From an uncultured Pseudacidovorax sp. (lineage in GTDB: Bacteria > Pseudomonadota > Gammaproteobacteria > Burkholderiales > Burkholderiaceae_C): a stretch of 40,137 nt of DNA. Below the pieces are notes generated by a model. That model did not search any database. It saw only the letters and a program-made list of their open reading frames with translations, and had not been told where the DNA came from. Numbering within the stretch: position 1 is the first letter of the stretch; every line of letters begins with the position of its first letter. A program made the position numbers and the translations under genes. Positions 2,108-20,756 of the stretch are shown piece by piece. The stretch is from assembly GCF_913773995.1 (NCBI RefSeq), contig NZ_CAJYES010000162.1, positions 1 through 40,137 of the forward strand, in the 5' to 3' direction.

Positions 2108-3391
2108 CTACCCGCCGTGGGCCATGCTCTGGAGCATGGGCAGCAGCATGTCGGTGGGGCCGAGCTTGCCGGACTTGAGGCACAGCGCGAGGCGGGCCTC
2201 GCCCGCGTCGTCGGTCACGGCGCGGGCCACGCCAGGGCCTTCGTAGGCGCCCACGACCAGGCGGTTCACATCCAGGTGGCGGAGCACCGCGCCGGAGGTC
2301 TCTCCGCCGGAGATGACGAATCGCCGCACGCCTGCGTCGCGCAGGCGCAGGGCCAGGCGTCCCAGCACCTCCTCGGCCACGGCGGCGGCGCCCAGCTTGC
2401 CGGCGCGGGCCTGTACGCGCTCGACCTCGGCGGCATCGGCGGACGTGGCGATGGCGACCGGCCCCGCCGCAAGCAGGGGCAGCGCCCAGGCAAGGGCCTC
2501 GCCCACCACGTCGGCGCCTTCGAGCGCACGGACCATGTCGAGCCAGAGCACCGGCCGGTGCAGGGCGAAGGCGCGCAGCTGCTCGATGGAGCGGCCCGCG
2601 CAGCTGCCGGCCAGCACGACGGCGGGGCCTGCCACGGGTGGCAGCGCCTGGTCGGCCGGCGCTTGTGCCAGCCAGCCGTTGCGCCGCCAGTGCGCCGGGT
2701 AGTAGGCGCCGATGGAGGAATTGCCGGTCATGAGCGGCCAGTCCCAGGTGAGGGCCGCAAGCGCCGCGAGATCGTCCGGTTCGGCCGCATCGGCAATGGC
2801 AAAGCCCACGCCCGCCGCCTGGAGCTGGGCGACGTGCGTGCGCATGGCCTGCACGCCGGCATGCACCACCTGCTGGGGCAGCAGCCCCACTCGGGTCGCC
2901 GTCTGGCGCTGCAGCGTGCGCACGAGGTTGGGGTCGAGCATGGGCGTCAGCGGATCGAATCGCTTGGGCGACTCGGAGATCAGCATGTCGTCCGCGAACA
3001 GGTGGCCCTGGAACACGCGGCGGCCTGCCTCCGGAAAGGAGGGGCAGAAGGCCGTGAAGCGCGCCCCCGTGATCTCGCGCAGCAGGTCGGCGCACGGGCC
3101 GATGTTGCCGGCGTCCGTCGAGTCGAAGGTGGCGCAGTACTTGAAGAAGAGCTGGCGAACGCCCCGCGCCTGCAGCGCCCGGGCGCCCTCGGCAAAGGCC
3201 TGCACCGCTTCGTGCGCCGGCACCACGCGGGTCTTGCCGGCGATGACGGCGGCCTCGATGTCGCGGGGCAGGGCGTCCAGCGCCGAGGGATGCGTCACGA
3301 AGCCGCAGCGCACCCCCTGGGCCACGAGCATGGCGGCGAGCTCCATGCCGCCGGTCAGGTCATCGGCGAGGGCGCCGAACAGAAGGGCCAT
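2108..3391 (-). CDS. otnK: four-carbon acid sugar kinase family (DUF1537), OtnK-like
   Basis: 427 residues from ATG 3391 (complement), the usual length of the family. The N-terminal half begins with ALLFGALADDLTGG, the sugar-acid-binding DDxTG signature, and contains YCATFDSTDAGNIGP. The C-terminal half has the nucleotide-binding pattern FVISGGETSGAVLRHL and a GPGVAR segment. Known members phosphorylate 3-oxo-tetronates (threonate and erythronate catabolism) with ATP. It is followed on the same strand by the OtnC-like gene and diverges from the aminotransferase across a 113-bp AT-richer gap. The frame is open further upstream, but the sequence before 3391 runs through the divergent promoter region and is not protein-like. 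Confidence 0.82.
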   Translation of the reverse strand: MALLFGALADDLTGGMELAAMLVAQGVRCGFVTHPSALDALPRDIEAAVIAGKTRVVPAHEAVQAFAEGARALQARGVRQLFFKYCATFDSTDAGNIGPCADLLREITGARFTAFCPSFPEAGRRVFQGHLFADDMLISESPKRFDPLTPMLDPNLVRTLQRQTATRVGLLPQQVVHAGVQAMRTHVAQLQAAGVGFAIADAAEPDDLAALAALTWDWPLMTGNSSIGAYYPAHWRRNGWLAQAPADQALPPVAGPAVVLAGSCAGRSIEQLRAFALHRPVLWLDMVRALEGADVVGEALAWALPLLAAGPVAIATSADAAEVERVQARAGKLGAAAVAEEVLGRLALRLRDAGVRRFVISGGETSGAVLRHLDVNRLVVGAYEGPGVARAVTDDAGEARLALCLKSGKLGPTDMLLPMLQSMAHGG

Positions 3392-3504
3392 TCCAGTCTC
3401 CTTGCGTTGGAAAAAAAGCACCCGCGGCGTCCAGGGGGCTATTGCGTTACATAAAACATGATATATCCTACGGCCGAACTCGACGACCACCAAGGCTTCT
3501 TCCC
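3392..3504. promoter_or_regulatory. divergent promoter region between otnK-like and aminotransferase genes
   Basis: This 113-bp gap is clearly more AT-rich than its surroundings. On the plus strand TTGCGT (3442-3447), a 16-bp spacer and TATCCT (3464-3469) form a plausible sigma-70 promoter toward the aminotransferase. A perfect 8-bp palindrome GATATATC sits at 3460-3467 over that -10 element and could be part of an operator, for example for the GntR regulator at 8900. Both assignments are inference from sequence pattern alone. Confidence 0.4.
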
Positions 3505-4758
3505 ATGTCTTCCGAAACTTCCAGCGCCGGTGCCGGCGAGCGGGACCATCTTCTGCGCCAGCGCGCCCTCAAGGTGGTGCCGGGCGGCATGACCGGGCAC
3601 CTGAACGCGGCCCAGCTGCCCGCTGGCTATCCGCAGTACTTCGCCCGCGGGCAGGGCTGCCGCGTGTGGGACGTCGATGGCCACGAGTACATCGACTTCA
3701 TGTGCAGCTGGGGCCCCAACCTGCTGGGCCATGCCCATCCGCAGGTGGACGAGGCGGCCCGCCGCCAGCAGGCGCTGGGCGATTGCCTCAACGGCCCGAC
3801 CGAGCGCTTCGTCGAGCTGGCCGAGCGCTTCGTGGCCCGCACCGCCCATGCGGACTGGGCGCTGTTCCAGAAGAACGGCACCGATGCCACCACCATCTGC
3901 CTGATGGTGGCCCGTGCCGCCACCGGCAAGCGCAAGGTGCTGGTGGCCACCAAGGCCTACCACGGCGCCGACCCGTGGTGCACGCCGGTGCCGGTGGGCA
4001 TCACCGCCGAGGACCGGGCGCATCTCATCTACTACACCTACAACGACACGGCGAGCCTGGACGCCGCCGTGGCCAAGGCCGGCGACGACCTGGCCGCCAT
4101 CGTGTGCGCGGCCTTCAAGCACGACCTGGGCGTCGACCAGGAGCTGCCCACCGCCGCGTTCGCCCGCCACGCCCGCCAGCTGTGCGACAGGGCCGGGGCA
4201 GCACTGATCGTGGACGAGGTGCGTGCGGGCATGCGCGTGCATGCCGGCGGCAGCTGGGAGACGGTGGGCGTGCGGCCTGACCTGTGCGCCTGGAGCAAGT
4301 CCATCGCCAACGGCTACGCCCTGGCGGCCGTCACCGGCGTGGACAGCCTGCGCGATGCCGCCACCCGCATCTATGCGACGGGCTCCTTCTGGTCGGGCGG
4401 CGTGGCCATGGCGGCCAGCCTGGCCACGCTGGACGTGGCCGATGCGCAGGACGTGGTCGGCCATGTGCGGGCCATGGGCCAGCGCCTGCGCGACGGCATC
4501 GCCGCCCAGGCCGCCAGCCACGGCATGCCGGTGCGCCAGACCGGCCCCGCCGCGCTGCCGCTGATCCTGTTCGAGGACGATCCGGCCTTCGAGAAGGGCT
4601 CCGCCTTCACCGTCGAGGCGCTGCGCCGCGGCGTCTACCTGCATCCCCGGCACAACATGTTCCTGTCGCTCGCGCACACCGAGGCCGACATCGACCAGGC
4701 ACTCGAAGCCACCGACGCCGCCTTCGCCGCCGTTTCCCGGCGCTACGGGTCCCGATGA
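3505..4758 (+). CDS. class III PLP aminotransferase, glutamate-1-semialdehyde aminomutase (HemL)-like
   Basis: 417 residues from ATG 3505. It is a fold-type I class III enzyme: DVDGHEYIDF near the N terminus, FQKNGTDATT for phosphate contact, LIVDEVRAG with Asp237 expected to bind the pyridine nitrogen, and WSKSIANG with Lys265 expected to form the Schiff base with PLP. The spacing fits HemL-like enzymes. It is unlikely to be the housekeeping hemL, because it lies in a catabolic locus, its start overlaps nothing biosynthetic, and its stop overlaps the region just before an importer ATPase. It probably transaminates or isomerises an amino group on the imported substrate. The substrate is unknown. 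Confidence 0.8.
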   Translation: MSSETSSAGAGERDHLLRQRALKVVPGGMTGHLNAAQLPAGYPQYFARGQGCRVWDVDGHEYIDFMCSWGPNLLGHAHPQVDEAARRQQALGDCLNGPTERFVELAERFVARTAHADWALFQKNGTDATTICLMVARAATGKRKVLVATKAYHGADPWCTPVPVGITAEDRAHLIYYTYNDTASLDAAVAKAGDDLAAIVCAAFKHDLGVDQELPTAAFARHARQLCDRAGAALIVDEVRAGMRVHAGGSWETVGVRPDLCAWSKSIANGYALAAVTGVDSLRDAATRIYATGSFWSGGVAMAASLATLDVADAQDVVGHVRAMGQRLRDGIAAQAASHGMPVRQTGPAALPLILFEDDPAFEKGSAFTVEALRRGVYLHPRHNMFLSLAHTEADIDQALEATDAAFAAVSRRYGSR

Positions 4759-10019: not shown

Positions 10020-12287
10020 ATGACCTTTCCCATCGAGACCAACGCCTTCGTCGGCTACCCCGACCAACTCAGCGTGCGCGCGGGCGATCGCATCCGCTTC
10101 CACCTCAGCAGCGCGCAGCAGACACAGGCCGACGTGAAGTTCGTGCGCGTGCGCTGCGCCGACGCCGACGCCACCGGCCCGGGCATCAAGTACCAGGAGA
10201 TGGCGTCGCCGATCGACGGCCTGCATGCGGTGGTGCACCGCGAGGTGCCCTGCGGCTCCTTCCTGCATGTGCCGGAAGATCCGCGTCTGGCGCCCGCCGG
10301 GACCTTCACCTTCGGCGCCTACATCTGGCCCACCCGCCTGACCGACACGCCGCAGACCGTGATGGCACGCTGGTGCGACGACACGGGCCGGGGCTATGCG
10401 CTGCAGGTGAGCCGCGCCGGCGTGGGCCTGCGCGTGGGCAGCGATGCGGGCGTCGCCGAACTGGGGACGGGCGTGGCGCTGGAGCAGCGGCGCTGGTACT
10501 GGGTGCAGGCCAGCCTGGACCCGGCCACGGGCGAGATGCACGTGCTGCAGTGCCGCCTGGCCGAGGGCGTGCTGCCCGAGCAGCGCCACGAGGCGCGCCG
10601 CACGGCACCCGGTCCATGGCAGATCGACGCCCAATGCGGGTTGACGGCGGGCGCACATCTGCGCACTCGCACGGAGGTCCGCTGCGCGGGCCACTACGAC
10701 GGCAAGATCGAAGGTCCGCGGATCGTGTTGGGAATCATGGAGGCCGACGCGCTGCGCCGCTGGGACGAGGCGCCCCGGCCCGGCCAGGCCGATGCGCAGC
10801 TGGTGGCCTGCTGGGACTTCTCGCAGGGCATCGAGACGCTGGACGTGCCGGACATCTCGGCCAACCGCCTTCACGGCCGCCTGCACCAGCTGCCCTGCCG
10901 CGCCATGACCGGCGTGCGCTGGACGGGCGATGTGCACGACTGGCGCGCCGCGCCGCAGCAGTACGGCGCCATCCATTTCCACAGCGACGACATCTACGAC
11001 TGCGAATGGCCCGCCACGCTGGAGCTCGACGTGCCGCGTAGCTGGAAGTCCGGCTTCTATGCCCTGCGCCTGCGCCCGCCGGGCGAGGGCGGGGCGCGCG
11101 CCGCGGACGATGCCGAGACCTTCATCACCTTCTTCATCACGCCCGCGGCCGATGCGGTGCGAGCCCCGCTGGCGGTGCTGGCGGCCAGCATGACCTACAT
11201 GGCCTATGCCAACAGTGCGCTGCGGCTGCATGCCGTGCACTTCGAGGTGCTGACCGAGCGGCTGCTGATGCTGACCGGCGACGACGTCTACCTGCAGGAG
11301 CATCCGGAGGTCGGTCAGTCCACCTACGACCACCACATCGACGGCAGCGGCCGCGCCTACAGCTCCTGGCTACGGCCGGTGCTGAACATGCGGCCGCGCT
11401 CCACGCCCGGCAACCTGGCCATCGACAGCCACTTCCTGGACTGGCTGGAAGAGAAGGGCATCGACTACGACGTCATCACCGACGTCGAACTGGACCGCCA
11501 GGGGCCCGGCGCGCTGGCGGGGTACCGCACGCTCGCCACGCTGTCGCATCCCGAGTACTACAGCGAGGCCATGATGAACGGCATCATGGCCTTCCAGAAC
11601 GCGGGCGGCCGGCACCTGGCCCTGGGCGCCAACGGCTTCTACTGGCGCTGCGCCTTCCATCCGCAGGCGCCCGCCGCGGTGGAAGTGCGCCGCGGCATGG
11701 CCGGCACCCGCACCTGGGAATCGCAGCCCGGCGAGGTGCACCTGGCCGGCACCGGCGAGCCCGGGGCGCTGTGGCGCCACAGCGGCTTCGCGCCGCAGAA
11801 GCTGATCGGCGTGGGCTTCGCGGCCATGGTCTACGACCATGCCGGCTACTACCTGCTGACGCCCGACGCGGCCAACCCGCGGGTGGCCTTTGCGGTCGAA
11901 GGCATCGCGCCCGGCGAGCGCATCGGCGACTACGGCGTGCGCATCGGGGGGGCCGTAGGCATCGAGATCGACCGCTTCGACGTCGGCCTGGGCTCCCCGC
12001 CTTATGCGGTGATGCTGGCCACCTCGCACGGCCTCGGGCCGGGCGCGCTGCCCACGCCCGAGGAATACCGCACCACGGTGCACGGCCTGGACGGCGAGCA
12101 GAACGCGCTGGTGCGGGCGGACATGGTGTTCTTCGAGACGGCCAACGGCGGCGCGGTCTTCGCGACGGGCTCAATCTCGTACGTGCTCTCGCTCAGCCAC
12201 AACGGCTACGACAACAACATCAGCCGCATCACGGGCAATGTGCTGCAGCGCTTCTTGGACCCGACGCCCTTCGAGGTGCCGGTATGA
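10020..12287 (+). CDS. N,N-dimethylformamidase large (beta) subunit-like protein
   Basis: 755 residues, close to the roughly 760 of characterised DmfA2. The N-terminal third is a lectin/LamG-like beta domain (FTFGAYIWPTRL, WYWVQASLD, HYDGKIEGPRI), and the C-terminal half is the catalytic domain. Dimethylformamidase uses a mononuclear iron held by two Tyr and one Glu (Tyr399, Tyr440, Glu521 in the Paracoccus enzyme). Here Tyr396 (in TYMAYAN), Tyr436 (in STYDHH) and Glu512 (in LSHPEYYS) fall at matching spacing, so the metal site seems intact. The enzyme hydrolyses an amide to acid plus amine. The locus contains no obvious dimethylamine or formate genes, so the true substrate is probably another amide. 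Confidence 0.85.
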   Translation: MTFPIETNAFVGYPDQLSVRAGDRIRFHLSSAQQTQADVKFVRVRCADADATGPGIKYQEMASPIDGLHAVVHREVPCGSFLHVPEDPRLAPAGTFTFGAYIWPTRLTDTPQTVMARWCDDTGRGYALQVSRAGVGLRVGSDAGVAELGTGVALEQRRWYWVQASLDPATGEMHVLQCRLAEGVLPEQRHEARRTAPGPWQIDAQCGLTAGAHLRTRTEVRCAGHYDGKIEGPRIVLGIMEADALRRWDEAPRPGQADAQLVACWDFSQGIETLDVPDISANRLHGRLHQLPCRAMTGVRWTGDVHDWRAAPQQYGAIHFHSDDIYDCEWPATLELDVPRSWKSGFYALRLRPPGEGGARAADDAETFITFFITPAADAVRAPLAVLAASMTYMAYANSALRLHAVHFEVLTERLLMLTGDDVYLQEHPEVGQSTYDHHIDGSGRAYSSWLRPVLNMRPRSTPGNLAIDSHFLDWLEEKGIDYDVITDVELDRQGPGALAGYRTLATLSHPEYYSEAMMNGIMAFQNAGGRHLALGANGFYWRCAFHPQAPAAVEVRRGMAGTRTWESQPGEVHLAGTGEPGALWRHSGFAPQKLIGVGFAAMVYDHAGYYLLTPDAANPRVAFAVEGIAPGERIGDYGVRIGGAVGIEIDRFDVGLGSPPYAVMLATSHGLGPGALPTPEEYRTTVHGLDGEQNALVRADMVFFETANGGAVFATGSISYVLSLSHNGYDNNISRITGNVLQRFLDPTPFEVPV

Positions 12288-13213
12288 GCGCCGGCTCCGT
12301 CCTGGCGGAGGGCGTCCATGACGCCGGTGACGCCGCACCACGCCCTGTGGCGGCCGGTGTCGATCCGCGCTGGCAGGCGGCAGGCCGCCTGGCCCTGCCG
12401 ACCTCCGAGCTGCGCGAGGTGGCCCGCATGCTGCGCCGCCAGGTGGTACAGCTGGTGCGCCGCCACGGTCAGGGCTATGTGCAGCAGGGCCTGGGTGCCG
12501 CCGAGCTGTTCGCCAGCCTCTACTTCCACGAGGCGGCCATCGATCCGGCCGACCCGCGTTGGTCGCGGCGCGACCGCTGCATCCTCTCGACCGCCCACAA
12601 CTCGGCGCTCTTCCATGCGGCATTGGCGCTGCGCGGGATGATTCCCGAGGCCGATCTGGCCGGCTACGTCGTGGACGGCTCCGTGCTGGAGATCAATGTC
12701 TCCGAGCGCCTGGGGCCGGTGGTCGAAGGCACCTTCGGCTCGCTCGGGCAGGGCGTCTCGGCCGCGGCCGGCATGGCGCTGGCCTCGCGCATCTCGGGCG
12801 TGGACTATCGGGTCAACGTCATCCTCGGCGACGGTGAACTCGAAGAGGGCCAAGTGTGGGAGGCTGCGATGTTCGCGGGCTCGCAGAAGCTGGGCAACCT
12901 CTGCGTGATCCTCGACCTGAACTGGATGCAGGTGGAGGGCCACACCGACCAGGTGCTGAAGCTCTCGCCCATCGCCGACAAGTGGCGGGCCTTCGGCTGG
13001 CAGGCCGTCGAGGTCGATGGCCATGACCTGGATGCCCTGGTCGCGGCCTTCGGCCTGGCCCGGGCCAACCGGGCGCAGCCCACCATCCTCATCGCCACCA
13101 CCGTGCCGGGCAAGGGCGTGCGTGCGCTGGAGGGGGTGATCAGTCACAACGCCAAGCTGCCCGCCGATCTGGCCGATGCGGCCCTGGCCGAACTGGAGGC
13201 CAGCCATGCGTGA
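12284..13213 (+). CDS. transketolase, N-terminal (thiamine-pyrophosphate-binding) subunit
   Basis: 309 residues; ATG 12284 overlaps the amidase-like stop as ATGA. It holds the first half of a transketolase: QGLGAAELFASLY, GSLGQGVSAAAGMALA, and the TPP/Mg motif GDGELEEGQ beginning at residue 182 with Asn213 about 30 residues on. Compared with free-standing N-terminal subunits it has about 40 extra residues at the N terminus. The usual SKGH motif reads STAHNSA. It must pair with the next gene product to make a working enzyme that moves a two-carbon ketol unit. In this setting the donor or acceptor is likely the carbon skeleton released from the imported compound (inference). Confidence 0.9.
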   Translation: MSAGSVLAEGVHDAGDAAPRPVAAGVDPRWQAAGRLALPTSELREVARMLRRQVVQLVRRHGQGYVQQGLGAAELFASLYFHEAAIDPADPRWSRRDRCILSTAHNSALFHAALALRGMIPEADLAGYVVDGSVLEINVSERLGPVVEGTFGSLGQGVSAAAGMALASRISGVDYRVNVILGDGELEEGQVWEAAMFAGSQKLGNLCVILDLNWMQVEGHTDQVLKLSPIADKWRAFGWQAVEVDGHDLDALVAAFGLARANRAQPTILIATTVPGKGVRALEGVISHNAKLPADLADAALAELEASHA

Positions 13214-14264
13214 CGCCACTCTTTCTCCTTTGTCGCAACCGGATGCGGTCGTGGTCGACGACTTCACCCAGGGCGGCGCGCATGCGGTCGCGCCGGCGCC
13301 GGGCGCAGCAGCTGCCAGCCAGGGCGCCGTGCCCCGCTACTACGGCGAGACGCTGCTGGCGCTGGCACGCGAACGCGGTCACATCGTGGCACTGTCCGCC
13401 GACCTGAGCAGTTCCACCGAGACCGACCTGTTCCGCGACGCGCTGCCGGAGCGCTTCATCAACGCCGGCATCGCCGAGGCCAACATGGTCGGCGTGGCGG
13501 GCGGACTGGCACGCAGCGGCATGCAGGCCTGGGTCCACACCTTCTGCGTCTTCGCCACGCGGCGGCCCTACGACCAGGTGGCCATGCAGGTGGCCTACCC
13601 CAAGGCCGACGTGAAGATCGTGGGCTTCCTGCCCGGGCTCGCCACCATCCTCGGCGTGAGCCACCAGGCCATCGACGACGTGGCGCTGATGCGGGCCCTG
13701 CCGAACATGACGGTGATCGAGCCCGCGGGCCCGGCGCAGGTGCCCGCCGCCGTGCGAGCGGCGGCCGACCACAAGGGGCCCGTCTACCTGCGCCTGCTGC
13801 GCGCCAGCCAGGCCTTGTCCGCGGGCACGCCCTGGATGCCGCTGCGCATCGGCGAGATCCAGCCGCTGGAAGCCGCCGAAGGCGAGGTGCTGCTGATCGC
13901 CAGCGGCCTGATGGTCGAGGTGGCGCTGGCCGCCGCGGCCCCCCTGCGGGCCCAGGGACTGGGCGTGGCCGTGGCCAACGCCCACACGCTCAAGCCCTTC
14001 GACGACGACTTCGTGCGTGCACAGGCCCGCCAGCGCCGGCTGATCGTCACGCTGGAGAACCATTCGGTGATCGGCGGACTGGGCTCGGCCGTCGCCGAGG
14101 CGCTGGCCGAAGCCGGGGGCGGCGCGCGCCTGCTGCGTCTGGGCGTGCGCGACCGGTTCGCGCAGGGCGCCTCGATGCCCTGGCTGTTCGAGCGCCATGG
14201 CCTCACGCCGCCGGCGGTGGCCGAGGCGGTCGGCCGCGCGCTGGCCGCGGGAGACGCGCGTTGA
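13206..14264 (+). CDS. transketolase, C-terminal subunit
   Basis: 352 residues from ATG 13206, overlapping the N-terminal subunit by 8 bp. It carries the pyrimidine-binding domain with NAGIAEANMVGVAGG, where Glu91 is the expected Glu that activates TPP, and the C-terminal transketolase domain ending near residue 335. A low-complexity Ala/Pro stretch (residues 25-40) precedes the folded part. Split transketolases of this kind are common in catabolic and secondary-metabolism loci and usually serve a special sugar rather than the pentose phosphate pathway. Confidence 0.9.
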   Translation: MRDATLSPLSQPDAVVVDDFTQGGAHAVAPAPGAAAASQGAVPRYYGETLLALARERGHIVALSADLSSSTETDLFRDALPERFINAGIAEANMVGVAGGLARSGMQAWVHTFCVFATRRPYDQVAMQVAYPKADVKIVGFLPGLATILGVSHQAIDDVALMRALPNMTVIEPAGPAQVPAAVRAAADHKGPVYLRLLRASQALSAGTPWMPLRIGEIQPLEAAEGEVLLIASGLMVEVALAAAAPLRAQGLGVAVANAHTLKPFDDDFVRAQARQRRLIVTLENHSVIGGLGSAVAEALAEAGGGARLLRLGVRDRFAQGASMPWLFERHGLTPPAVAEAVGRALAAGDAR

Positions 14265-15067
14265 GCGCCGCCCTTCGCATCACCGGCCGGACGGGCATCC
14301 TGTTCATCCTGGCCAATCCGGTGGCGCATGTGGTCGGTTCGGACCGGCTCAACGCGCGCTTCGCGGCCGAGGGGCTGGACATGGCGGTGTCGCCGCTGCA
14401 CGTGGGCCCGTCGGACCTTCCCACCGTCATCGGCACATTGCGGCTGCTGCAGAACGTGCGGGGCTTCGGCGTGACCATCCCGCACAAGATCGCGGTGATG
14501 CCGCTGCTGGATGCGGTCACGCCGCGCGCGCGCCTGATCGGCGCGGTCAACTTCGTCCGCCGGGATCCCGACGGCCGCCTCACCGGCGACAACCTCGACG
14601 GGCAGGGCTTCGTGGACGGACTGGCTGCGGGCGGCATCGGCCTGGCGGGCCGCCGCGTGCTGCAGCTGGGCGCGGGCGGCGCCGGACGGGCGGTGGCTTT
14701 TGCCGTCGCGGAGGCGGGCGCCAGCGCATTGGTCATCCACAACCGCACGGCGGCGCGCGCACAGGCGCTGGCCGAGGCGGTAGGCGCGGCCTGGCCGGGC
14801 TGTGCTGCCGCGTCGGGGCCGGACGATCCTCGCGGCTTCGACGTCGTGATCAACACCACCTCGATGGGCATGCACGAAGGCGATGCGCTGCCCCTGGATG
14901 TCGGTCGGCTCGCCGCTTCCACCGATGTGGCCGAGATCATCATGACCCCGGCGCTCACGCCATTGCTGGTCGCCGCGCAGGCCCGCGGCTGCCGCATCTC
15001 GCTCGGCACCTCGATGCTCGATGCGCAGTACGGGCTGGTGAAGCAGCTGCTGGGCATCTCCAGCTGA
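14261..15067 (+). CDS. shikimate dehydrogenase-like protein with an altered substrate pocket
   Basis: 268 residues. The start is a TTG at 14261 whose last bases overlap the transketolase stop (TTGA), which suggests translational coupling. It shows the AroE layout: VTIPHK with Lys76, GDNLDGQGF with Asp113 as the catalytic pair, then LGAGGAGRAV for NADP/NAD and NTTSMGM near the end. The N-terminal NPVxHSxSPxxHN motif of true AroE, whose two Ser bind the shikimate carboxylate, here reads NPVAHVVGSDRLN, so both Ser are gone at their normal places. It probably oxidises or reduces a related hydroxylated compound that lacks that carboxylate or carries another group. It is the last gene of the run. 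Confidence 0.82.
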   Translation: MSAALRITGRTGILFILANPVAHVVGSDRLNARFAAEGLDMAVSPLHVGPSDLPTVIGTLRLLQNVRGFGVTIPHKIAVMPLLDAVTPRARLIGAVNFVRRDPDGRLTGDNLDGQGFVDGLAAGGIGLAGRRVLQLGAGGAGRAVAFAVAEAGASALVIHNRTAARAQALAEAVGAAWPGCAAASGPDDPRGFDVVINTTSMGMHEGDALPLDVGRLAASTDVAEIIMTPALTPLLVAAQARGCRISLGTSMLDAQYGLVKQLLGISS

Positions 15068-15396
15068 GCCGAACGGGTCGCGGCGCGATCGGCCTTCAAC
15101 CCGTCCGCCGGCCGGGCGAGCCCCACCATGCGAGGGCGAGCGCGGGGTGAGCGCCGGTGCTCGAGGACGCCAACGAGGTGCGTGGGTGTCGTCCCATCTG
15201 GTGCACTGCACCGCTGTGGATCACGCCATGGCCGCGGCTCAGTGCGGCTCGTTGACGGGCGCGTGAATAGCCGTCGAAAAACACTGTACTGGTCAACGAA
15301 TGTTCTGGCGCACGCTTTGCTGCCCTTGCAGCTTTCGCGTCCCGCACCCCTGTCGTGCCAGAACACCTCCCGCTTCCTTCTTTCCCCTCCAAGGCC
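15068..15396. other. 329-bp gap without a recognisable gene
   Basis: I see no protein-like frame here. A 6-bp inverted repeat, ACGGGT (15073-15078) and ACCCGT (15099-15104), follows the end of the preceding operon but has no T run. TTGACG at 15252-15257 could be a -35 element, but no good -10 sits at the right distance. The promoter of the channel gene pair should lie in this gap. Confidence 0.4.
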
Positions 15397-15918
15397 ATGC
15401 GCCTGGGTGGCGACGGCATCTTCTTCATGCTGGCGCTGGCCGCCATGGTCTTCATGGGTTCCGCCGCCGCGCGTACCTGGCGTCACGCCACGCTGACGGA
15501 GCGGAGCAAGTCGCAGGCGGAGCAGCTGTCGCACTGGATGGCCGCGGCACACGCGGCGGGCCGCGGGCAGGACTTCCTGCCGCAGGCCTGCGCCGCGCCG
15601 CAGCCGCTCGCGGAGACATCGCCGCGCTGGGGCGCCTGTGCCCAGGCATTGATGGCAGACGCCGGGCCCTTGGGGGCCATGCGCAACGCCTTCACCGGTG
15701 CGCCGCTGCAGCTCATCGACAAGTGCAAGCCTGGCCAGGCTGCCACGGTAGGGCAGCTGGTGCTTGAGAAGCTGATGCCACCCGTTCCCGGCACGTCCAC
15801 GCCTGCGGCGGCGGTGCCGTTGGTGGAGGGCGACGCCCTGGCGCCGGCCTTGGCCTTGCGCCTGCAGGTCTGCGATGCCGCGGGCTACGCCATCCATGTG
15901 GCCGACCTCGACTTCTAG
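15397..15918 (+). CDS. single-pass membrane protein with four cysteines, unknown function
   Basis: 173 residues from ATG 15397; a GTG at 15355 would add 14 residues and is less likely. Residues about 6-25 (GIFFMLALAAMVFMGSAAA) form one membrane helix, then an amphipathic helix (TERSKSQAEQLSHWMAAAHAAG), then a globular part with Cys in PQACAAP, WGACAQ, DKCKPG and QVCDAAG. The N-terminal helix plus compact Cys-containing domain is reminiscent of pilin-like proteins, but there is no clear prepilin cleavage motif. The channel gene begins 18 bp after its stop, so the two are probably one transcript. It could be an accessory subunit of that channel; this is inference from spacing only. Confidence 0.6.
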   Translation: MRLGGDGIFFMLALAAMVFMGSAAARTWRHATLTERSKSQAEQLSHWMAAAHAAGRGQDFLPQACAAPQPLAETSPRWGACAQALMADAGPLGAMRNAFTGAPLQLIDKCKPGQAATVGQLVLEKLMPPVPGTSTPAAAVPLVEGDALAPALALRLQVCDAAGYAIHVADLDF

Positions 15919-15936
15919 AAGCCGACGCACGAGGCC

Positions 15937-17670
15937 ATGTCCATGTTGCCGATGAACGGCGAATCGCCGACCCCACGCTCCTACCGGCATGCGGCCCGCG
16001 GCCCGGTGCCGGCCATCGTCGGTGACCGGGCCCTGCACGAAGCGGCCGCCCTGAATCCGCGGCAGAGGCTGCGGCGGCTGCTGTGGGCCAGCCTGCTCGA
16101 TCCGGGCAATGCCAGCAACTGGCAGCGCGTCTTCGACCGCGCGGTGGCCTGGACCATCGGCGCGAACCTGGTCGTGGCCCTGCTGGAGGCGGCGGCGGCC
16201 CTGCCCGAATCGGCCCGGCACTGGCTGCACCTGTTCGATGCGGTGTCGCTCGCCGTGTTCATCCTCGAGTACGGGCTGAGGCTCTATACGGCCCCCGAAG
16301 ATCCGGCATTCGCGGCGGCGCCGCGTCCGCGTCTGGCCTTCTTCAGCAGTCCCTATGCACTGCTGGACCTGATCGCCATCCTGCCCAGCCTGCTGCATGC
16401 CTTCGTGCCCATCGATCTGCGCGTGCTGCGGGTCTTCCGGCTGTTGCGGATCCTGAAGCTGTTCCGCTTCCTCGTGCCGGCGGTCAACGAGTTCAACCAG
16501 CTCAATGCCGGCCGCAGCCTGCGGCAGCGGGTCCATGCGCTGGTCTTTGCCAGTCCGTACAGCGGCAAGCTGCACGGCTACTTCGACTTCGTGATCGCCG
16601 CCTGCGTGCTGGTGTCCGTGGTGGCCGTGATCCTGGAGTCGGTGCACTGGATCCAGTACCGCTTCCACCTGGAACTCGTGGTGGTCGACATCGTGGTGGT
16701 GTCGGTGTTCACGCTGGAGTTCTGGCTGCGGCTGTACGGCTGCGTCGAGGAGCCGGGCTACGAAGGGCCGCTGCTGGGTCGCCTGCGCCAGGCCCGCAGC
16801 CCGGGCATGCTGATCGACCTGCTGGCGATCCTGCCCTTCTTCGTGGAGGCGTTCTTCAACTATGTGCTGGATCTGCGCTTCCTGCGTGTGTTCCGCCTGT
16901 TGCGTCTGCTCAAGCTCACGCGCTACACCGACGCGACGCGCACGCTGGCCAAGGTGATCGGCCGCGAATGGCCGGTCATGGCGGCCGCGGCCTTCATCAT
17001 GGGGCTGCTGGTCATCCTCACGGCGAGCCTGGGCTACGTCTTCGAGCATGACGCCCAGCCCGACAAGTTCGAGAACATCCCGCAGTCGATCTACTGGGCG
17101 GTGATCACCCTGGCCTCGGTCGGCTATGGCGACATCACGCCGGTGACGCCGGCCGGCCGTACCGTGACCATCGTGCTGGCGCTGATCGGCATCGGCATCT
17201 TCGCCATTCCGGCGGCCCTGCTGTCCTCGGCGTTCTCCGACCAGCTGCACAAGGAGCGGGACGCGCTGCGTCAGGAGCTGTTCGACATGCTGGCCGACGG
17301 AAAGCTGTCGGAGGAAGAGGCCGAGATCGTCAACCGCGAGGCCAAGCGCCTGCACCTGTCGGCGGAAGACGTGGAGGTGCTGATGCAGGAGGCCCGGCGG
17401 GCGCGGGAGATCGCCACCGATCTGTCGAAGCTGCCGCTGCACGTCATTGCCGCGGACACCGACCATGCCATCGAGCACTTCAAGTCCTTGCTGTGCGACA
17501 TCCGCAAGCTCTCGCTGATGACCGACTGCGCGAAGTTCGCCCACGTCGCCCGCGTGGCCGGGCGGCTCACCGATGCGGAGTGGCAGGCCTGGGAGTGCAT
17601 TCGCGGGCCGTCGGCGTCCGTGCAGGCGGCGGACGCAGCGGCAGTCCAGGACAGCAGCAAGCGGTCGTAG
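15937..17670 (+). CDS. voltage-gated potassium channel with two tandem voltage-sensor domains and one pore
   Basis: 577 residues. First voltage sensor: S1 about 66-90, S2 about 98-119 (FILEYGLRLY), S3 about 138-155 (LLDLIAILP), S4 161-178 with Arg162, Arg165, Arg168, Arg171, Lys174, Arg177 at every third position. Second sensor: S1 215-239, S2 244-268 (TLEFWLRLY), S3 288-305 (LIDLLAILP), S4 312-329 with Arg314, 317, 320, 323, Lys326, Arg329. One pore follows: S5 about 345-368, filter TLASVGYGD (391-399), S6 about 407-432, then a charged 145-residue cytoplasmic tail rich in helices. Ordinary bacterial Kv channels have one sensor per pore. The two S3-S4 units are so alike that an internal duplication is likely. 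The GYGD filter indicates K+ selectivity. Confidence 0.9.
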   Translation: MSMLPMNGESPTPRSYRHAARGPVPAIVGDRALHEAAALNPRQRLRRLLWASLLDPGNASNWQRVFDRAVAWTIGANLVVALLEAAAALPESARHWLHLFDAVSLAVFILEYGLRLYTAPEDPAFAAAPRPRLAFFSSPYALLDLIAILPSLLHAFVPIDLRVLRVFRLLRILKLFRFLVPAVNEFNQLNAGRSLRQRVHALVFASPYSGKLHGYFDFVIAACVLVSVVAVILESVHWIQYRFHLELVVVDIVVVSVFTLEFWLRLYGCVEEPGYEGPLLGRLRQARSPGMLIDLLAILPFFVEAFFNYVLDLRFLRVFRLLRLLKLTRYTDATRTLAKVIGREWPVMAAAAFIMGLLVILTASLGYVFEHDAQPDKFENIPQSIYWAVITLASVGYGDITPVTPAGRTVTIVLALIGIGIFAIPAALLSSAFSDQLHKERDALRQELFDMLADGKLSEEEAEIVNREAKRLHLSAEDVEVLMQEARRAREIATDLSKLPLHVIAADTDHAIEHFKSLLCDIRKLSLMTDCAKFAHVARVAGRLTDAEWQAWECIRGPSASVQAADAAAVQDSSKRS

Positions 17671-17696
17671 GGCCGTGCCAGCGGGCCCGGACGCCG

Positions 17697-18392
17697 CTAC
17701 ACGCGTCCGCTCACCGGGATCGCCGCGCCATGGATGGCGCGCGCCGCGTCCGAGGCCAGGAAGGCGATCACATCGGCCAGGGCCTGTGGCGCCACCCAGC
17801 GTGCGAAGTCGGCATCGGGCATGGACTGGCGGTTGTCCGGCGTGTCGATGATCGAGGGCAGCACGCAGTTGACGCGGATGCCCTGGTCCTTCAGTTCCGC
17901 CGACATCGACTCGGTCAGGCGGACCAGCGCGCTCTTGGCCGCGCTGTAGGCGCCCATCTGCGCACCGCCGCGCGCGGCGGCGCCCGCGCCCACGGTCACG
18001 ATCTGGCCGCCGCCCTGCTTGAGCAGCAGCGGCACGGTGGCCGCGGCCACATGCAGCAGCGAGCGGGCGTTCAGGTCCATCAGGAAGTCCCAGGTCGCGG
18101 CGCTGGTCTCGTGCACCGCTTCGCCCATGCGGAAGCCGCCGGCGATGTGGCAGACGGTGTGCAGGCCGCCCATGCGCGCCACGGCTTCGCCGATGCGCTG
18201 CGCGACCTGTTGTCGATCGGCCAGGTCGACCGTCACGTTCAGCACGGCGTCGCCATCGGGCAGGGCGCCGCTCTGGCGGTCCAGCAGGATGAGCCTGGCG
18301 CCCCGGTCCTGGAATGTCTGCGCCACGGCGCGGCCGAGCTGGCCGGAGGCGCCGGTGATCAGCACCACCCGCTGCGCGTTCTGTGCATTCAT
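17697..18392 (-). CDS. short-chain dehydrogenase, quinonoid dihydropteridine reductase-like
   Basis: 231 residues from ATG 18392 (complement). It is a classical SDR: LITGASGQLGRAV for NAD(P), Tyr/Lys of the YSAAK motif, and a late substrate loop reading LPSIIDTPDNRQSMPDADF followed by ARW. Animal quinonoid dihydropteridine reductase has a near-identical loop (LP, then DTPxNRxSMPxADFxxW) and also the AGG after the fourth strand, seen here as HIAGGF. It is the last gene of an operon with phenylalanine hydroxylase and pterin carbinolamine dehydratase, 10 bp after phhA. I infer that it reduces the quinonoid dihydropterin back to the tetrahydro form. A general SDR role remains possible. Confidence 0.7.
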   Translation of the reverse strand: MNAQNAQRVVLITGASGQLGRAVAQTFQDRGARLILLDRQSGALPDGDAVLNVTVDLADRQQVAQRIGEAVARMGGLHTVCHIAGGFRMGEAVHETSAATWDFLMDLNARSLLHVAAATVPLLLKQGGGQIVTVGAGAAARGGAQMGAYSAAKSALVRLTESMSAELKDQGIRVNCVLPSIIDTPDNRQSMPDADFARWVAPQALADVIAFLASDAARAIHGAAIPVSGRV

Positions 18393-18402
18393 GGATGTGC
18401 CT

Positions 18403-19305
18403 TCAAACCTTGGGTGCGGAACGACGCGCCGCGTGGTAGCGGCCCGTGCCGCGGGTGAGGACCGCGTCGGTGGCCAGCACGTCGCCCGGCTCGTGCTCTG
18501 GCGCACCGGCCAGACGCTGATAGAGCGGCGCAAAGTCGATGCGGGCCAGCTCCAGCAGTTCGTCCAGGTGACCCAGCACGAAGTAGGTCTCCTGGAAGTC
18601 GTCGATGCGGTAGTGCGTCTGCATCACCCGCGCCAGCTCGAAGCGGATGCGGTTGGGCGAGTCGTCCTCGACGGCGAAGCGGGTCTCGCTGGCGGACGAG
18701 GCGATGCCGGCGCCATAGATGCGCAGGCCGTCGCTCTGCTGCACCAGGCCGAACTCCACCGTGTACCAGTAGACCCGGGCCAGCTTCTCCAGCATGCCCA
18801 GGCGGTTGGCCTTGAGGCCGCCTTCGCCGTAGGCCTGGATGTAGTCGGCGATGACCGGGTTCATCAGCATGGGCACATGGCCGAACACGTCGTGGAAGAC
18901 GTCGGGCTCTTCCAGGTAGTCCAGCTCATGCGGCTTGCGGATGAACTGGCCGGCCGGAAAGCGGCGGTTGGCCAGGTGCTCGAAGAACACGTCGTCGGGC
19001 ACCAGGCCCGGCACGGCCACCACCTCCCAGCCAGTGCGTGCGCGCAGCACCCTGGACATCTGCGCGAAGTCGGGAATCTGCTCCGGGCCGATGGGCAGGT
19101 CCTGCATGCCGCGGATGAATTCGTCGCACGCGCGGCCGGGTAGCAAGCGGCTCTGGCGTTCGAAGAGCGTGCGCCACACGCCATGCTCCTCGGCGGTGTA
19201 GCGGCCCCAGTCCTGGTCGATGGTCCAGTCGGGCCGCGCAGGGGCGTGTTCTGTCCCCGCCGCCAGGCCATGCTTGGCCGGCGCGGTGTCGGTGGTCTGC
19301 AGCAT
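18403..19305 (-). CDS. phhA: phenylalanine 4-monooxygenase
   Basis: 300 residues, the usual length of the bacterial enzyme. The non-heme iron ligands are visible as His138 and His143 in FHDVFGHVP and Glu184 in YWYTVEFGL, the same spacing as in the Chromobacterium enzyme. It hydroxylates phenylalanine to tyrosine using O2 and a tetrahydropterin. It sits between phhB (9-bp gap) and the dihydropteridine-reductase-like SDR, so the operon carries the hydroxylase and both steps of cofactor recycling, and hpd for the next stage of tyrosine breakdown. The C-terminal tail after residue 280 is Arg-rich and not conserved. Confidence 0.96.
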   Translation of the reverse strand: MLQTTDTAPAKHGLAAGTEHAPARPDWTIDQDWGRYTAEEHGVWRTLFERQSRLLPGRACDEFIRGMQDLPIGPEQIPDFAQMSRVLRARTGWEVVAVPGLVPDDVFFEHLANRRFPAGQFIRKPHELDYLEEPDVFHDVFGHVPMLMNPVIADYIQAYGEGGLKANRLGMLEKLARVYWYTVEFGLVQQSDGLRIYGAGIASSASETRFAVEDDSPNRIRFELARVMQTHYRIDDFQETYFVLGHLDELLELARIDFAPLYQRLAGAPEHEPGDVLATDAVLTRGTGRYHAARRSAPKV

Positions 19306-19314
19306 GGCGGGCTC

Positions 19315-19650
19315 CTAGGTGGAGGAGGCGGGGGCGCGGGCGCCCAGGGCGTTGGCCAGCCGGTCCATCAGGCCGGCCATCTCGATGTCCTTGGCCGAGA
19401 GGCCGTTGGCATCGTGCGTGGTCAGGGTGACCTGCACGCGGTTGTAGACGTTGAACCATTCGGGGTGGTGGTTCATGCGCTCCGCATGCAGCGCGACCTG
19501 GGCCATGAAGCCGAAGGCGGCCACGAAGTCGCCGAAGACGAATTCGCGCACGATCAGGCCGCCGCGCTCCGGTGCATGGCGCCACCGCGGCAGCGTGGCG
19601 AGCTGCGCCGCGAGCGCGTCGCCGTCGAGACGGACGGGCGCTGCGCTCAC
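19315..19650 (-). CDS. phhB: pterin-4a-carbinolamine dehydratase
   Basis: 111 residues, standard for the family. The start is a GTG at 19650 (complement) that overlaps the hpd stop as GTGA, so translation is coupled. The catalytic His-rich segment is [18 protein letters not shown], followed by [17 protein letters not shown], both diagnostic. It dehydrates the 4a-hydroxy-tetrahydropterin made by PhhA to the quinonoid dihydropterin. No in-frame ATG is available nearby upstream of the conserved core. Confidence 0.93.
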
Positions 19651-20756
19651 GCGGCTTCCTTCTCGGCGGCCTTGTCGTCCACCTTCAGCACGCCGCGGTT
19701 GATCTGGTCGCGCTCCAGCGACTCGAACAGGGCTTTGAAATTGCCCTCGCCGAAGCCTTCGCGGTAGTCGCCCTTGCGCTCGATGAATTCGAAGAAGACC
19801 GGGCCCAGGGTGGGCTCCGAGAAGATCTGCAGCAAGAGGCGCGGCTGGCCGCCTTCGGTGGTGCCGTCGAGCAGGATGCCGCGGGCCTGCAGCTCGCCCA
19901 CGGGCTGGCCGTGACCGGGCAGGCGCTTTTCGAGGTTCTGGTAGTAGATGTCGTTGGGCGCCGTCAGCAGCGGCACCCCGGCCATCTGCAGGCGGTCGAT
20001 GGAGTCGAGCAGGTTGTCCGTCAGCAGGGCGATGTGCTGGATGCCCTCGCCGTTGAACTGCATCAGGAACTCCTCGATCTGGCCGCCGCCCTGGCGCGAC
20101 TCCTCGTTGAGCGGAATGCGCACGAGGCCATCGGGCGCGGTCATGGCCTTGGAGGTGAGGCCGGTGTATTCGCCACTGATGTCGAAGTAGCGGATCTCGC
20201 GGAAGTTGAAGAGCTTGCTGTAGAAGTCTGCCCAGTAGCTCATGCGGCCGCGGTAGACGTTGTGCGTCAGGTGGTCCACCACCTGGAAGCCATGGCCCTT
20301 GGGATGGCGGTCCACGCCCGGCAGGAACTCGAAGTCGATGTCGTAGATGGACTTGCCGTCCTCGTAGCGATCGATCAGGTACAGCGGCGCGCCGCCGATG
20401 CCCTTGATGGCCGGCAGGCGCAGCTCCATGGGACCGGTGGCGATCTCGACGGGCTGGGCGCCCTGCTCCAGGGCGCGCTTGTAGGCCAGATGCGAGTCCT
20501 TCACGCGGAAGGCGAGGCCGCAGGCGGAGGGACCATGCTCGGCGGCGAAGTAGGCGGCCGGGCTGCGCGGCTCGCGGTTGACGATGAAGTTGATGCCGCC
20601 CTGGCGGTAGAGCAGCACGTCCTTGGAGCGGTGCTTGGCCACCAGCGTGAAGCCCATCTTCTCGAACACCGGCTCCAGGACATTCGGCGTGGGCGAGGCG
20701 AACTCGACGAATTCGAAGCCGCACAGGCCCATGGGGTTGTCGAAGAGGTCGGACAT
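19647..20756 (-). CDS. hpd: 4-hydroxyphenylpyruvate dioxygenase
   Basis: 369 residues. It has the two vicinal-oxygen-chelate domains of the family, with iron ligands His162 (VVDHLTHNV), His241 ([12 protein letters not shown]) and Glu323 ([10 protein letters not shown]), and the C-terminal [13 protein letters not shown] helix. It converts 4-hydroxyphenylpyruvate to homogentisate, the step after tyrosine transamination. It is the first gene of the operon, and its stop overlaps phhB. The homogentisate dioxygenase and maleylacetoacetate isomerase genes are not in this window; the FAH-family gene at 33872 is in another operon. Confidence 0.97.

Follow-up and report, generated by a model that had tools for sequence, protein, structure and literature searches.

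In voltage-gated channels, the influence of sensor number and of sensor-pore coupling on the steepness of gating is usually studied by cutting or linking eukaryotic proteins, and to our knowledge only eukaryotic members are known to have auxiliary subunits of their own or a deliberate asymmetry among subunits. Eukaryotic Kv-like tandems built from two six-transmembrane units (6TM-6TM) carry two pores per chain, according to the accessible part of PMC7576140. Here we describe a gene on contig NZ_CAJYES010000162.1 of an uncultured Pseudacidovorax sp., analyzed over its positions 1 to 40,137 (40,137 nt, hereafter the window), whose product carries two complete voltage-sensor domains (VSDs) in series followed by one pore. 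This sensor-sensor-pore layout seems to be undescribed. The first-pass annotation, made from the DNA letters, had supposed as much for bacteria, and a partial literature search, which took in few subscription papers and no bioRxiv preprints, found no description of a bacterial channel of this form; the review PMC13095418, in its accessible part, uses none of the terms 'two VSDs', 'eight VSDs' and 'tandem'.

Pfam Ion_trans (PF00520) matches the single 577-residue frame twice. The match over the second unit and the pore scores 118.8 bits and spans profile positions 2-238 (S1-S6), and that over the first unit scores 56.5 bits and spans positions 2-113 only, which correspond to S1-S4. A single Ion_trans_2 match at residues 357-433 indicates one pore segment per chain. 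These matches reproduce the layout claimed in the first-pass annotation, two S1-S4 units and one S5-filter-S6, and its finer details are present as well: six basic residues in each S4 (162-177 and 314-329), the S3 strings LLDLIAILP and LIDLLAILP, and the filter SVGYGD (394-399). By Pfam, alignment and AlphaFold2 (AF2), the protein has the S4 basic ladder and S5-P-S6 of a Kv channel, with two sensors per pore segment where Kv channels have one; tandem 6TM channels and TPC have two pore segments per chain, in contrast to the one Ion_trans_2 stretch found here. The filter region, ITLASVGYGD, agrees with the K+ pattern TxxVGYGD, and the C-terminal tail gives a weak TerB-like match that lies under Pfam's cut-off.

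The channel was modeled as a monomer from 74 aligned sequences (mean predicted local distance difference test, pLDDT, 79.6; predicted template modeling score, pTM, 0.60). The model places helices at residues 63-85, 91-121, 139-156 and 161-189 in sensor 1 and at 212-235, 237-271, 289-307 and 314-328 in sensor 2, followed by S5, the pore helix, S6 and a helical tail. Ten-residue block means of pLDDT are 80-95 across sensor 1 and 94-96 across the linker between the sensors (181-210). This linker, cytoplasmic by topology, is largely helical in the model (a helix up to 189 and again at 195-203), and its residues P181, A182, N190, R193, R196, A201 and G210 are invariant in 74/74 aligned rows.

Relatives were taken from a scan of genome contigs, from which the best 80 of 206 were kept, and from a genus search that supplied congeners. 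The contig scan used query peptides and is thus biased to close relatives, so that its 80 loci give no frequency. The full-length set comprised 81 proteins including that of the window, whose own copy (L004) was dropped, and 79 after removal of two identical ones; cut or broken genes were left aside (L091, L092, L099 and the entries L008, L025 and L031 of genome G011). Alignment A1 holds the 74 of the 79 with a methionine before the match. All 79 distinct proteins, of which 78 come from other assemblies, have the two-sensor, one-pore layout. Within one protein, the two units are 39.5% identical in the window and 32-44% identical across the 79, and the longest ungapped DNA repeats between them match at 71% over 45 nt and at 81% over 47 nt. 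Across 89 genes the filter reads SVGYGD in 87 and SIGYGD in one, and is missing from L092, whose frame breaks before the pore.

The charge machinery of both sensors is intact throughout the family. All six S4 residues of sensor 2 listed in Table 1 (R314 to R329) are present in 79/79 proteins, as are R168, R171, K174 and R177 in sensor 1, where position 162 is R in 71 and H in 8 and position 165 is R in 71 and K in 8. Also invariant in 79/79 are F108/E111/D144 in sensor 1 and F258/E261/D294 in sensor 2, which we take to be charge-transfer residues as in Kv channels. Pairwise identity averages 0.831 in the pore; it is 0.676 in sensor 2 and nearly as high in sensor 1 (0.625) and the linker (0.645), and falls to 0.473 in the tail. 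Against three congeners, the ratio of nonsynonymous to synonymous substitution rates (dN/dS) is 0.36, 0.33 and 0.24 for sensor 1, 0.19, 0.19 and 0.20 for sensor 2 and ~0.04 for the pore. Sensor 1 is therefore under purifying selection, weaker than that on sensor 2. Because its S4 ladder and charge-transfer centre are conserved and its dN/dS lies at 0.24-0.36, sensor 1 looks like a working voltage sensor.

A search with profile A1 for other two-sensor, one-pore proteins, a check proposed at the outset, returned full matches in 4/399 genomes of the order and 4/299 of the family (own genome counted in each, with one further broken copy in the family) and in 2/398 of the phylum, namely the own genome and G377, both Burkholderiales. 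The three samples overlap, and 3 or 4 candidates were scored per genome, so misses are possible. Within the genus, a single-protein search found the full-length gene in 4/15 genomes (own counted) and, in G011, the gene in pieces. Given these low counts, the family is patchy and rare. Its members are recorded under Pseudacidovorax, Limnohabitans, Rhodoferax, Polaromonas, Ramlibacter, Comamonas, Comamonadaceae and Oxalobacteraceae, most of them from metagenome assemblies, and one (L092) is recorded as Alphaproteobacteria. The phylum survey had led us to believe the layout confined to Burkholderiales, a view contradicted by a plasmid record. A tblastn search of plasmids matched 11 records, one of which encodes a distant two-sensor channel: the 491-aa 'ion transporter' WP_159082572.1 of Gemmobacter aquarius, 39% identical over 379 aa that include sensor 1, with two Ion_trans stretches, a linker, one pore and the filter SSIGYGD. 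The layout is thus not confined to Burkholderiales. None of 120 genomes of another family of the phylum, which we guess to be that of Gemmobacter, had a two-sensor match. A second, diverged type of two-sensor gene, a2, occurs in two genomes, one of which (G950) holds an ion-channel island (L172:6177-14438) with the two-sensor gene (a), two one-sensor genes described below (b and c), an opposite-strand Kv gene with the filter TTTGYGD, a bacterial Nav-like gene (TLESW filter) and a2; the Nav-like gene overlaps a2.

Trees were built from the two sensor units and from one-sensor channels. They held 25 two-sensor proteins in a 95-row tree and 15 each in a broader tree, a tree of sensor 2, pore and tail, and a tree with Gemmobacter; subsets of b (9/26) and c (8/23); and 20, 5, 4 and 5 other Kv channels in that order, the Gemmobacter tree omitting five long-branch rows (L116, L134, L140, L141 and L142). 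In the 95-row tree, sensor 1 (100/99) and sensor 2 (96/93) each form a clade, which places the doubling before the radiation of the family. The same narrow tree joined sensor 1 with sensor 2 plus a1 (97/84), where a1 denotes one-sensor channels that share the linker start, pore and tail and group with sensor 2 (99/85). A phylogeny of the two sensors had been proposed as a check on descent: the two old, separate clades stand, whereas the join between them is lost in the broader tree, which adds 23 one-sensor channels drawn phylum-wide. Approximately unbiased (AU) tests reject neither a common clade of sensors 1 and 2 (p-AU 0.677) nor a grouping of sensor 1 with the b/c lineage (p-AU 0.369), so the tandem duplication proposed in the first-pass annotation agrees with the data no more exclusively than its alternative. 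The Gemmobacter sensor 1 sits at the end of a branch as long as 8.64 changes per column; its union with sensor 1 (p 0.534) and that of the two sensors 2 (p 0.467) both stand unrejected. A copy of sensor 2 and a fusion from another channel are both compatible with the trees as the source of sensor 1. When sensor 2, pore and tail are analyzed together, the a, a1 and a2 proteins group as a single clade (100/100), with three a1 proteins beside the rest (89/88). That placement fits a scheme in which an a1-like channel gained sensor 1, with possible later losses in the weakly placed L146 and L116.

Two features lie beyond the first-pass annotation: a conserved partner gene upstream of the channel, here called aux, and, in relatives, the channel genes b and c. 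The mechanical open reading frame (ORF) of aux starts at GTG 15355, and its stop lies 18 nt before the channel ATG. In the upstream census, which covered 89 distinct two-sensor genes in 87 loci (the broken L092 and two a2 genes included), aux stands upstream on the same strand in 78 of the 83 that have 700 nt or more of sequence on that side, 77 by automated scoring and L064 from its locus listing; the gap to the channel runs from -46 to 29 nt (first pass, 68 loci). Profile A2, built from 69 of 75 distinct upstream proteins (L005, L041, L091, L094, L105 and L108 were excluded by eye, by a rule left unstated), detected aux in 5/299 family genomes (G000, G011, G853, G950 and G1027). These are the same five that carry sensor 1 by A1, and aux lies directly upstream of the channel each time; the A1 and A2 surveys are taken as one draw of 299 genomes, since their members agree, and A2 scored 11 candidates per genome. 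In G011 (G011:C6:59512-61701; L008, L182) the channel is in three pieces and aux has one stop codon, a joint breakage that could be decay or sequencing error. The aux profile had no match anywhere in loci L039, L067 and L109, in five a1 one-sensor loci of 3.6-4.1 kb, or in the 7.0-kb Gemmobacter locus. As a side observation, a one-sensor channel gene with a canonical TVGYGD filter lies ahead of aux and the two-sensor gene in genome G249 (L176:6473-7438, +), all three in the same orientation.

The AF2 model of aux (pLDDT 92.3, pTM 0.84) has an N-terminal helix at residues 3-54, which we read as a membrane anchor, followed by a small beta-rich domain that is probably periplasmic. Of the cysteines at 65, 81, 110 and 159, the last three are invariant and C65 is kept in at least 90% of 69 sequences. 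None of three upstream proteins scored above the Pfam cut-off, nor did either of two in NCBIfam, and Foldseek gave no aux fold match in the PDB at E <= 0.001. A pilin-like identity was considered, given the long first helix followed by beta sheet, and rejected on this lack of a fold match and because a prepilin motif was not seen. Since it appears membrane-anchored, bears cysteines, is encoded beside the channel and co-occurs with it, aux is likely an auxiliary subunit of the channel. We know of no bacterial voltage-gated channel that has an auxiliary subunit dedicated to it, and the partial literature search found none.

Table 1. Coordinates of the channel, its parts and associated genes (window positions unless a locus is named)
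Feature	Location	Strand	Details and evidence
Predicted two-voltage-sensor K+ channel subunit	15937..17670	+	ATG start, 577 aa; Pfam, alignment, AF2
Voltage-sensor domain 1	16120..16476	+	residues 62-180; Pfam, alignment, AF2
S4 of sensor 1	16414..16476	+	residues 160-180: R162 R165 R168 R171 K174 R177
Inter-sensor linker, conserved	16477..16569	+	residues 181-211; alignment, AF2
Voltage-sensor domain 2	16570..16932	+	residues 212-332; Pfam, alignment, AF2
S4 of sensor 2	16870..16932	+	residues 312-332: R314 R317 R320 R323 K326 R329
S4-S5 linker, S5, pore helix, filter, S6	16933..17256	+	residues 333-440
Putative K+ selectivity filter SVGYGD	17116..17133	+	residues 394-399
Predicted cytoplasmic helical C-terminal tail	17257..17667	+	residues 441-577; AF2
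Probable auxiliary subunit gene (aux)	15397..15918	+	173 aa from ATG 15397; AF2, alignment, co-occurrence
Nav-like TLESW genes	L095:851-1714, 3114-3974; L096:896-1759, 3116-4000	-	loci L095, L096

Each of loci L095 and L096 holds a pair of the Nav-like TLESW genes of Table 1, which precede the two-sensor gene by a few kb. Around the channel itself, a promoter and terminator scan of positions 15000-18000 found none. On the opposite strand, an open frame of 1113 aa overlaps the channel gene (14203-17544, -); we regard it as a high-GC shadow frame and no gene. Downstream (17697-20756, -) lie what we presume, by eye, to be genes for a short-chain dehydrogenase, phenylalanine 4-hydroxylase and 4-hydroxyphenylpyruvate dioxygenase.

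To account for this architecture, we propose a K+-selective, depolarization-activated tetramer in which sensor 2 gates, sensor 1 biases sensor 2 and aux serves as an auxiliary subunit, a reading that we consider somewhat probable as a whole. The protein would be a subunit of an inner-membrane channel of the Kv/KCNQ kind, with one pore per tetramer. Sensor 2 would act as the ordinary sensor and drive the gate through its long S4-S5 linker, as in Kv and KCNQ channels. Sensor 1 would be a second real sensor, located outside sensor 2 and tied to the S1 of sensor 2 by the conserved cytoplasmic linker: its S4 would run via P181-A182 into the linker and from there into that S1, with no pore of its own. 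Movement of sensor 1 could then bias sensor 2, such that opening becomes steeper or occurs only after both have moved. That the linker is conserved, confidently modeled and not evidently a loose tether favors such a mechanical influence. The upstream gene would supply a membrane-anchored periplasmic auxiliary subunit. Assuming a homotetramer, the channel would hold eight sensors and 48 S4 basic residues, for which steeper or two-step gating is possible. The analysis itself shows the layout of two sensors and one pore and its conservation, the intact charge residues in each sensor, the purifying selection on sensor 1 and the linkage of aux; we infer the tetramer, its K+ selectivity, its activation by depolarization, the coupling of sensor 1 and the binding and topology of the partner.

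Several observations weigh against this mechanism. Sensor 1 has changed faster than sensor 2 has, above all in the window's lineage, whose end branches stand at 0.97 for sensor 1 against 0.61 for sensor 2. One-sensor a1 channels with the same tail and pore indicate that sensor 1 is dispensable for such a channel. Outside the main family, the S4 charges of the Gemmobacter protein are thinned in both sensors, and sensor 1 of a2 has a Glu near the first charge position. The monomer model, with its pTM of 0.60, falls to a pLDDT of 56-66 across residues 361-430 in the pore and, at this low confidence, does not give the position of sensor 1 in a tetramer; its PDB fold matches are significant with poor cover (TM-score by query 0.19-0.24, best 50). 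As for the partner, the a2 genes of two genomes have no aux upstream, the window's aux is only 21-41% identical to 68 others, and its dN/dS against L007 is ~0.54 (dN 0.58, dS 1.08, 148 codons), that is to say, aux is weakly constrained and fast evolving.

The main rival to a gating role assigns sensor 1 a docking role: it would be mainly a scaffold that holds aux or stabilizes the tetramer, with little or no part in gating. The faster evolution of sensor 1 is in keeping with a scaffold, as are the co-occurrence of the aux gene with the two-sensor gene and the lack of an aux match in the five a1 loci. A scaffold, however, need not keep gating residues, whereas R168/R171/K174/R177 and F108/E111/D144 are invariant in 79/79, and the a2 genes, L039, L067 and L109 have two sensors with no aux upstream. 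We hold this docking role to be rather unlikely and continue to prefer a sensor 1 that biases sensor 2.

A different reading concerns the one-sensor genes b and c that lie downstream in some relatives, as in L045, L043 and L172 (there at 10826-11824 and 11790-12707, -). Where at least 2.2 kb follow the two-sensor gene, both are found in 25/67 cases, neither in 42/67 (both a2 genes among them) and a single one in none; of the 22 genes with less than 2.2 kb, 16 have neither, 4 have b only, with the contig ending soon after, and 2 have both. With the first ATG of each frame as start, b and c overlap by 1-8 nt in 23/27 pairs. They branch as sister groups (b+c 100/99), next to canonical TVGYGD channels (94/87), and their consensus S4 ladders are complete (26 b, 23 c). 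In an alignment of 71 sequences, b and c lack one filter residue relative to the 54 others: the commonest filters read T-I-T-S-GYGN in b and T-I-I-S-GWGN in c, against T-L-T-T-V-GYGD in canonical one-sensor kin. The short filter is present in 30/30 readable b (31 found) and 26/26 readable c (27 found), and the partial literature search found no channel paper for either filter string. These features suggest that b and c are no longer ordinary K+ channels on their own and join a in a heteromer. Taken to its limit, this becomes an obligate heteromer, with the two-sensor subunit functional only together with b and c, and their strictly paired occurrence and overlapping frames would suit it. Against it stand the 42/67 genes without b and c and the window's genome, in which the one other Ion_trans frame found, 367 aa long and on another contig, is a separate Kv channel; a heteromer is thus not obligate, at least in that genome, and we judge the idea quite improbable.

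Still less credence attaches to a sensor 1 that serves, in the manner of Hv1, as a proton or ion pathway of its own, which would give two permeation units per protein. In Hv1, a voltage-sensor domain alone can conduct protons, and its hallmarks are an Asp in the middle of S1, the S4 motif RxWRxxR and the absence of a pore. The window protein has a pore, and sensor 1 lacks these hallmarks: its S4 reads RVLRVFRLLRILKLFR, and the acidic residues conserved in its S1 are D67 (D 72, E 7) and E84 (79/79). When residues 1-211 were compared with the PDB, the best 60 of 106 matches were weak (best E 2.4e-4) and consisted of Cav, bacterial Nav ('ion transport protein'), CatSper, Kv and KCNQ channels, with Hv1 absent among them. 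Finally, an assembly error, which the first-pass annotation had named as a refutation of its reading, or a meaningless recent duplication within the gene, for which we found no supporting point and to which we give practically no weight, is contradicted by the 78 distinct homologues, the clades at 100/99 and 96/93, the 32-44% identity of the units and their diverged DNA.

The family has value for questions usually approached by engineering. A whole second sensor per subunit, with its charge machinery kept family-wide, offers a natural test of the effect of an extra sensor, for which the a1 one-sensor relatives serve as a natural control. The b and c genes are natural one-residue filter deletions, and aux would be a candidate for an auxiliary subunit dedicated to a bacterial voltage-gated channel. 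Going beyond the proposed mechanism, we tentatively entertain, as a possibility that we would not put at even chances, a new class of complex: an eight-sensor K+ channel with a periplasmic auxiliary, to which some lineages add b and c to give an asymmetric heteromer of changed selectivity.

The nearest solved structures of the whole protein are KCNQ and Kv channels. Its best PDB sequence match is KCNQ5 (9j38, E 1.8e-24, query 212-440), and in the best 60 of 244 sequence matches the best stretch lies within residues 194-464, sensor 2 plus pore; the best fold match is Kv4.2 (7uk5, E 9.4e-07, TM-score by query 0.24). With KCNQ (Kv7), Kv1/Kv2/Kv4 and bacterial one-sensor Kv channels, the window channel shares S1-S4, the S4-S5 linker, S5, filter and S6, and it differs from them in the extra S1-S4 in front, a C-terminal tail of its own and the upstream partner gene. 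The a1 channels of Burkholderiales (L120, L121 and L147, with L116 and L146 less surely placed) correspond to it in the start of the linker, sensor 2, pore and tail, and lack sensor 1. The Gemmobacter protein has the same order of two S1-S4 units, linker and one pore, with fewer S4 charges and the filter SSIGYGD. As far as the accessible part of PMC7576140 describes them, eukaryotic 6TM-6TM tandems also have two S4 ladders per chain, but they repeat the whole of S1-S6 and so hold two pores, where the window channel has one pore for two sensors. TPC and fungal TOK likewise carry internal repeats within the voltage-gated superfamily, according to the same accessible text (PMC7576140). In TPC the repeat includes the pore and in TOK the repeat is the pore unit, whereas the window channel doubles the sensor only.

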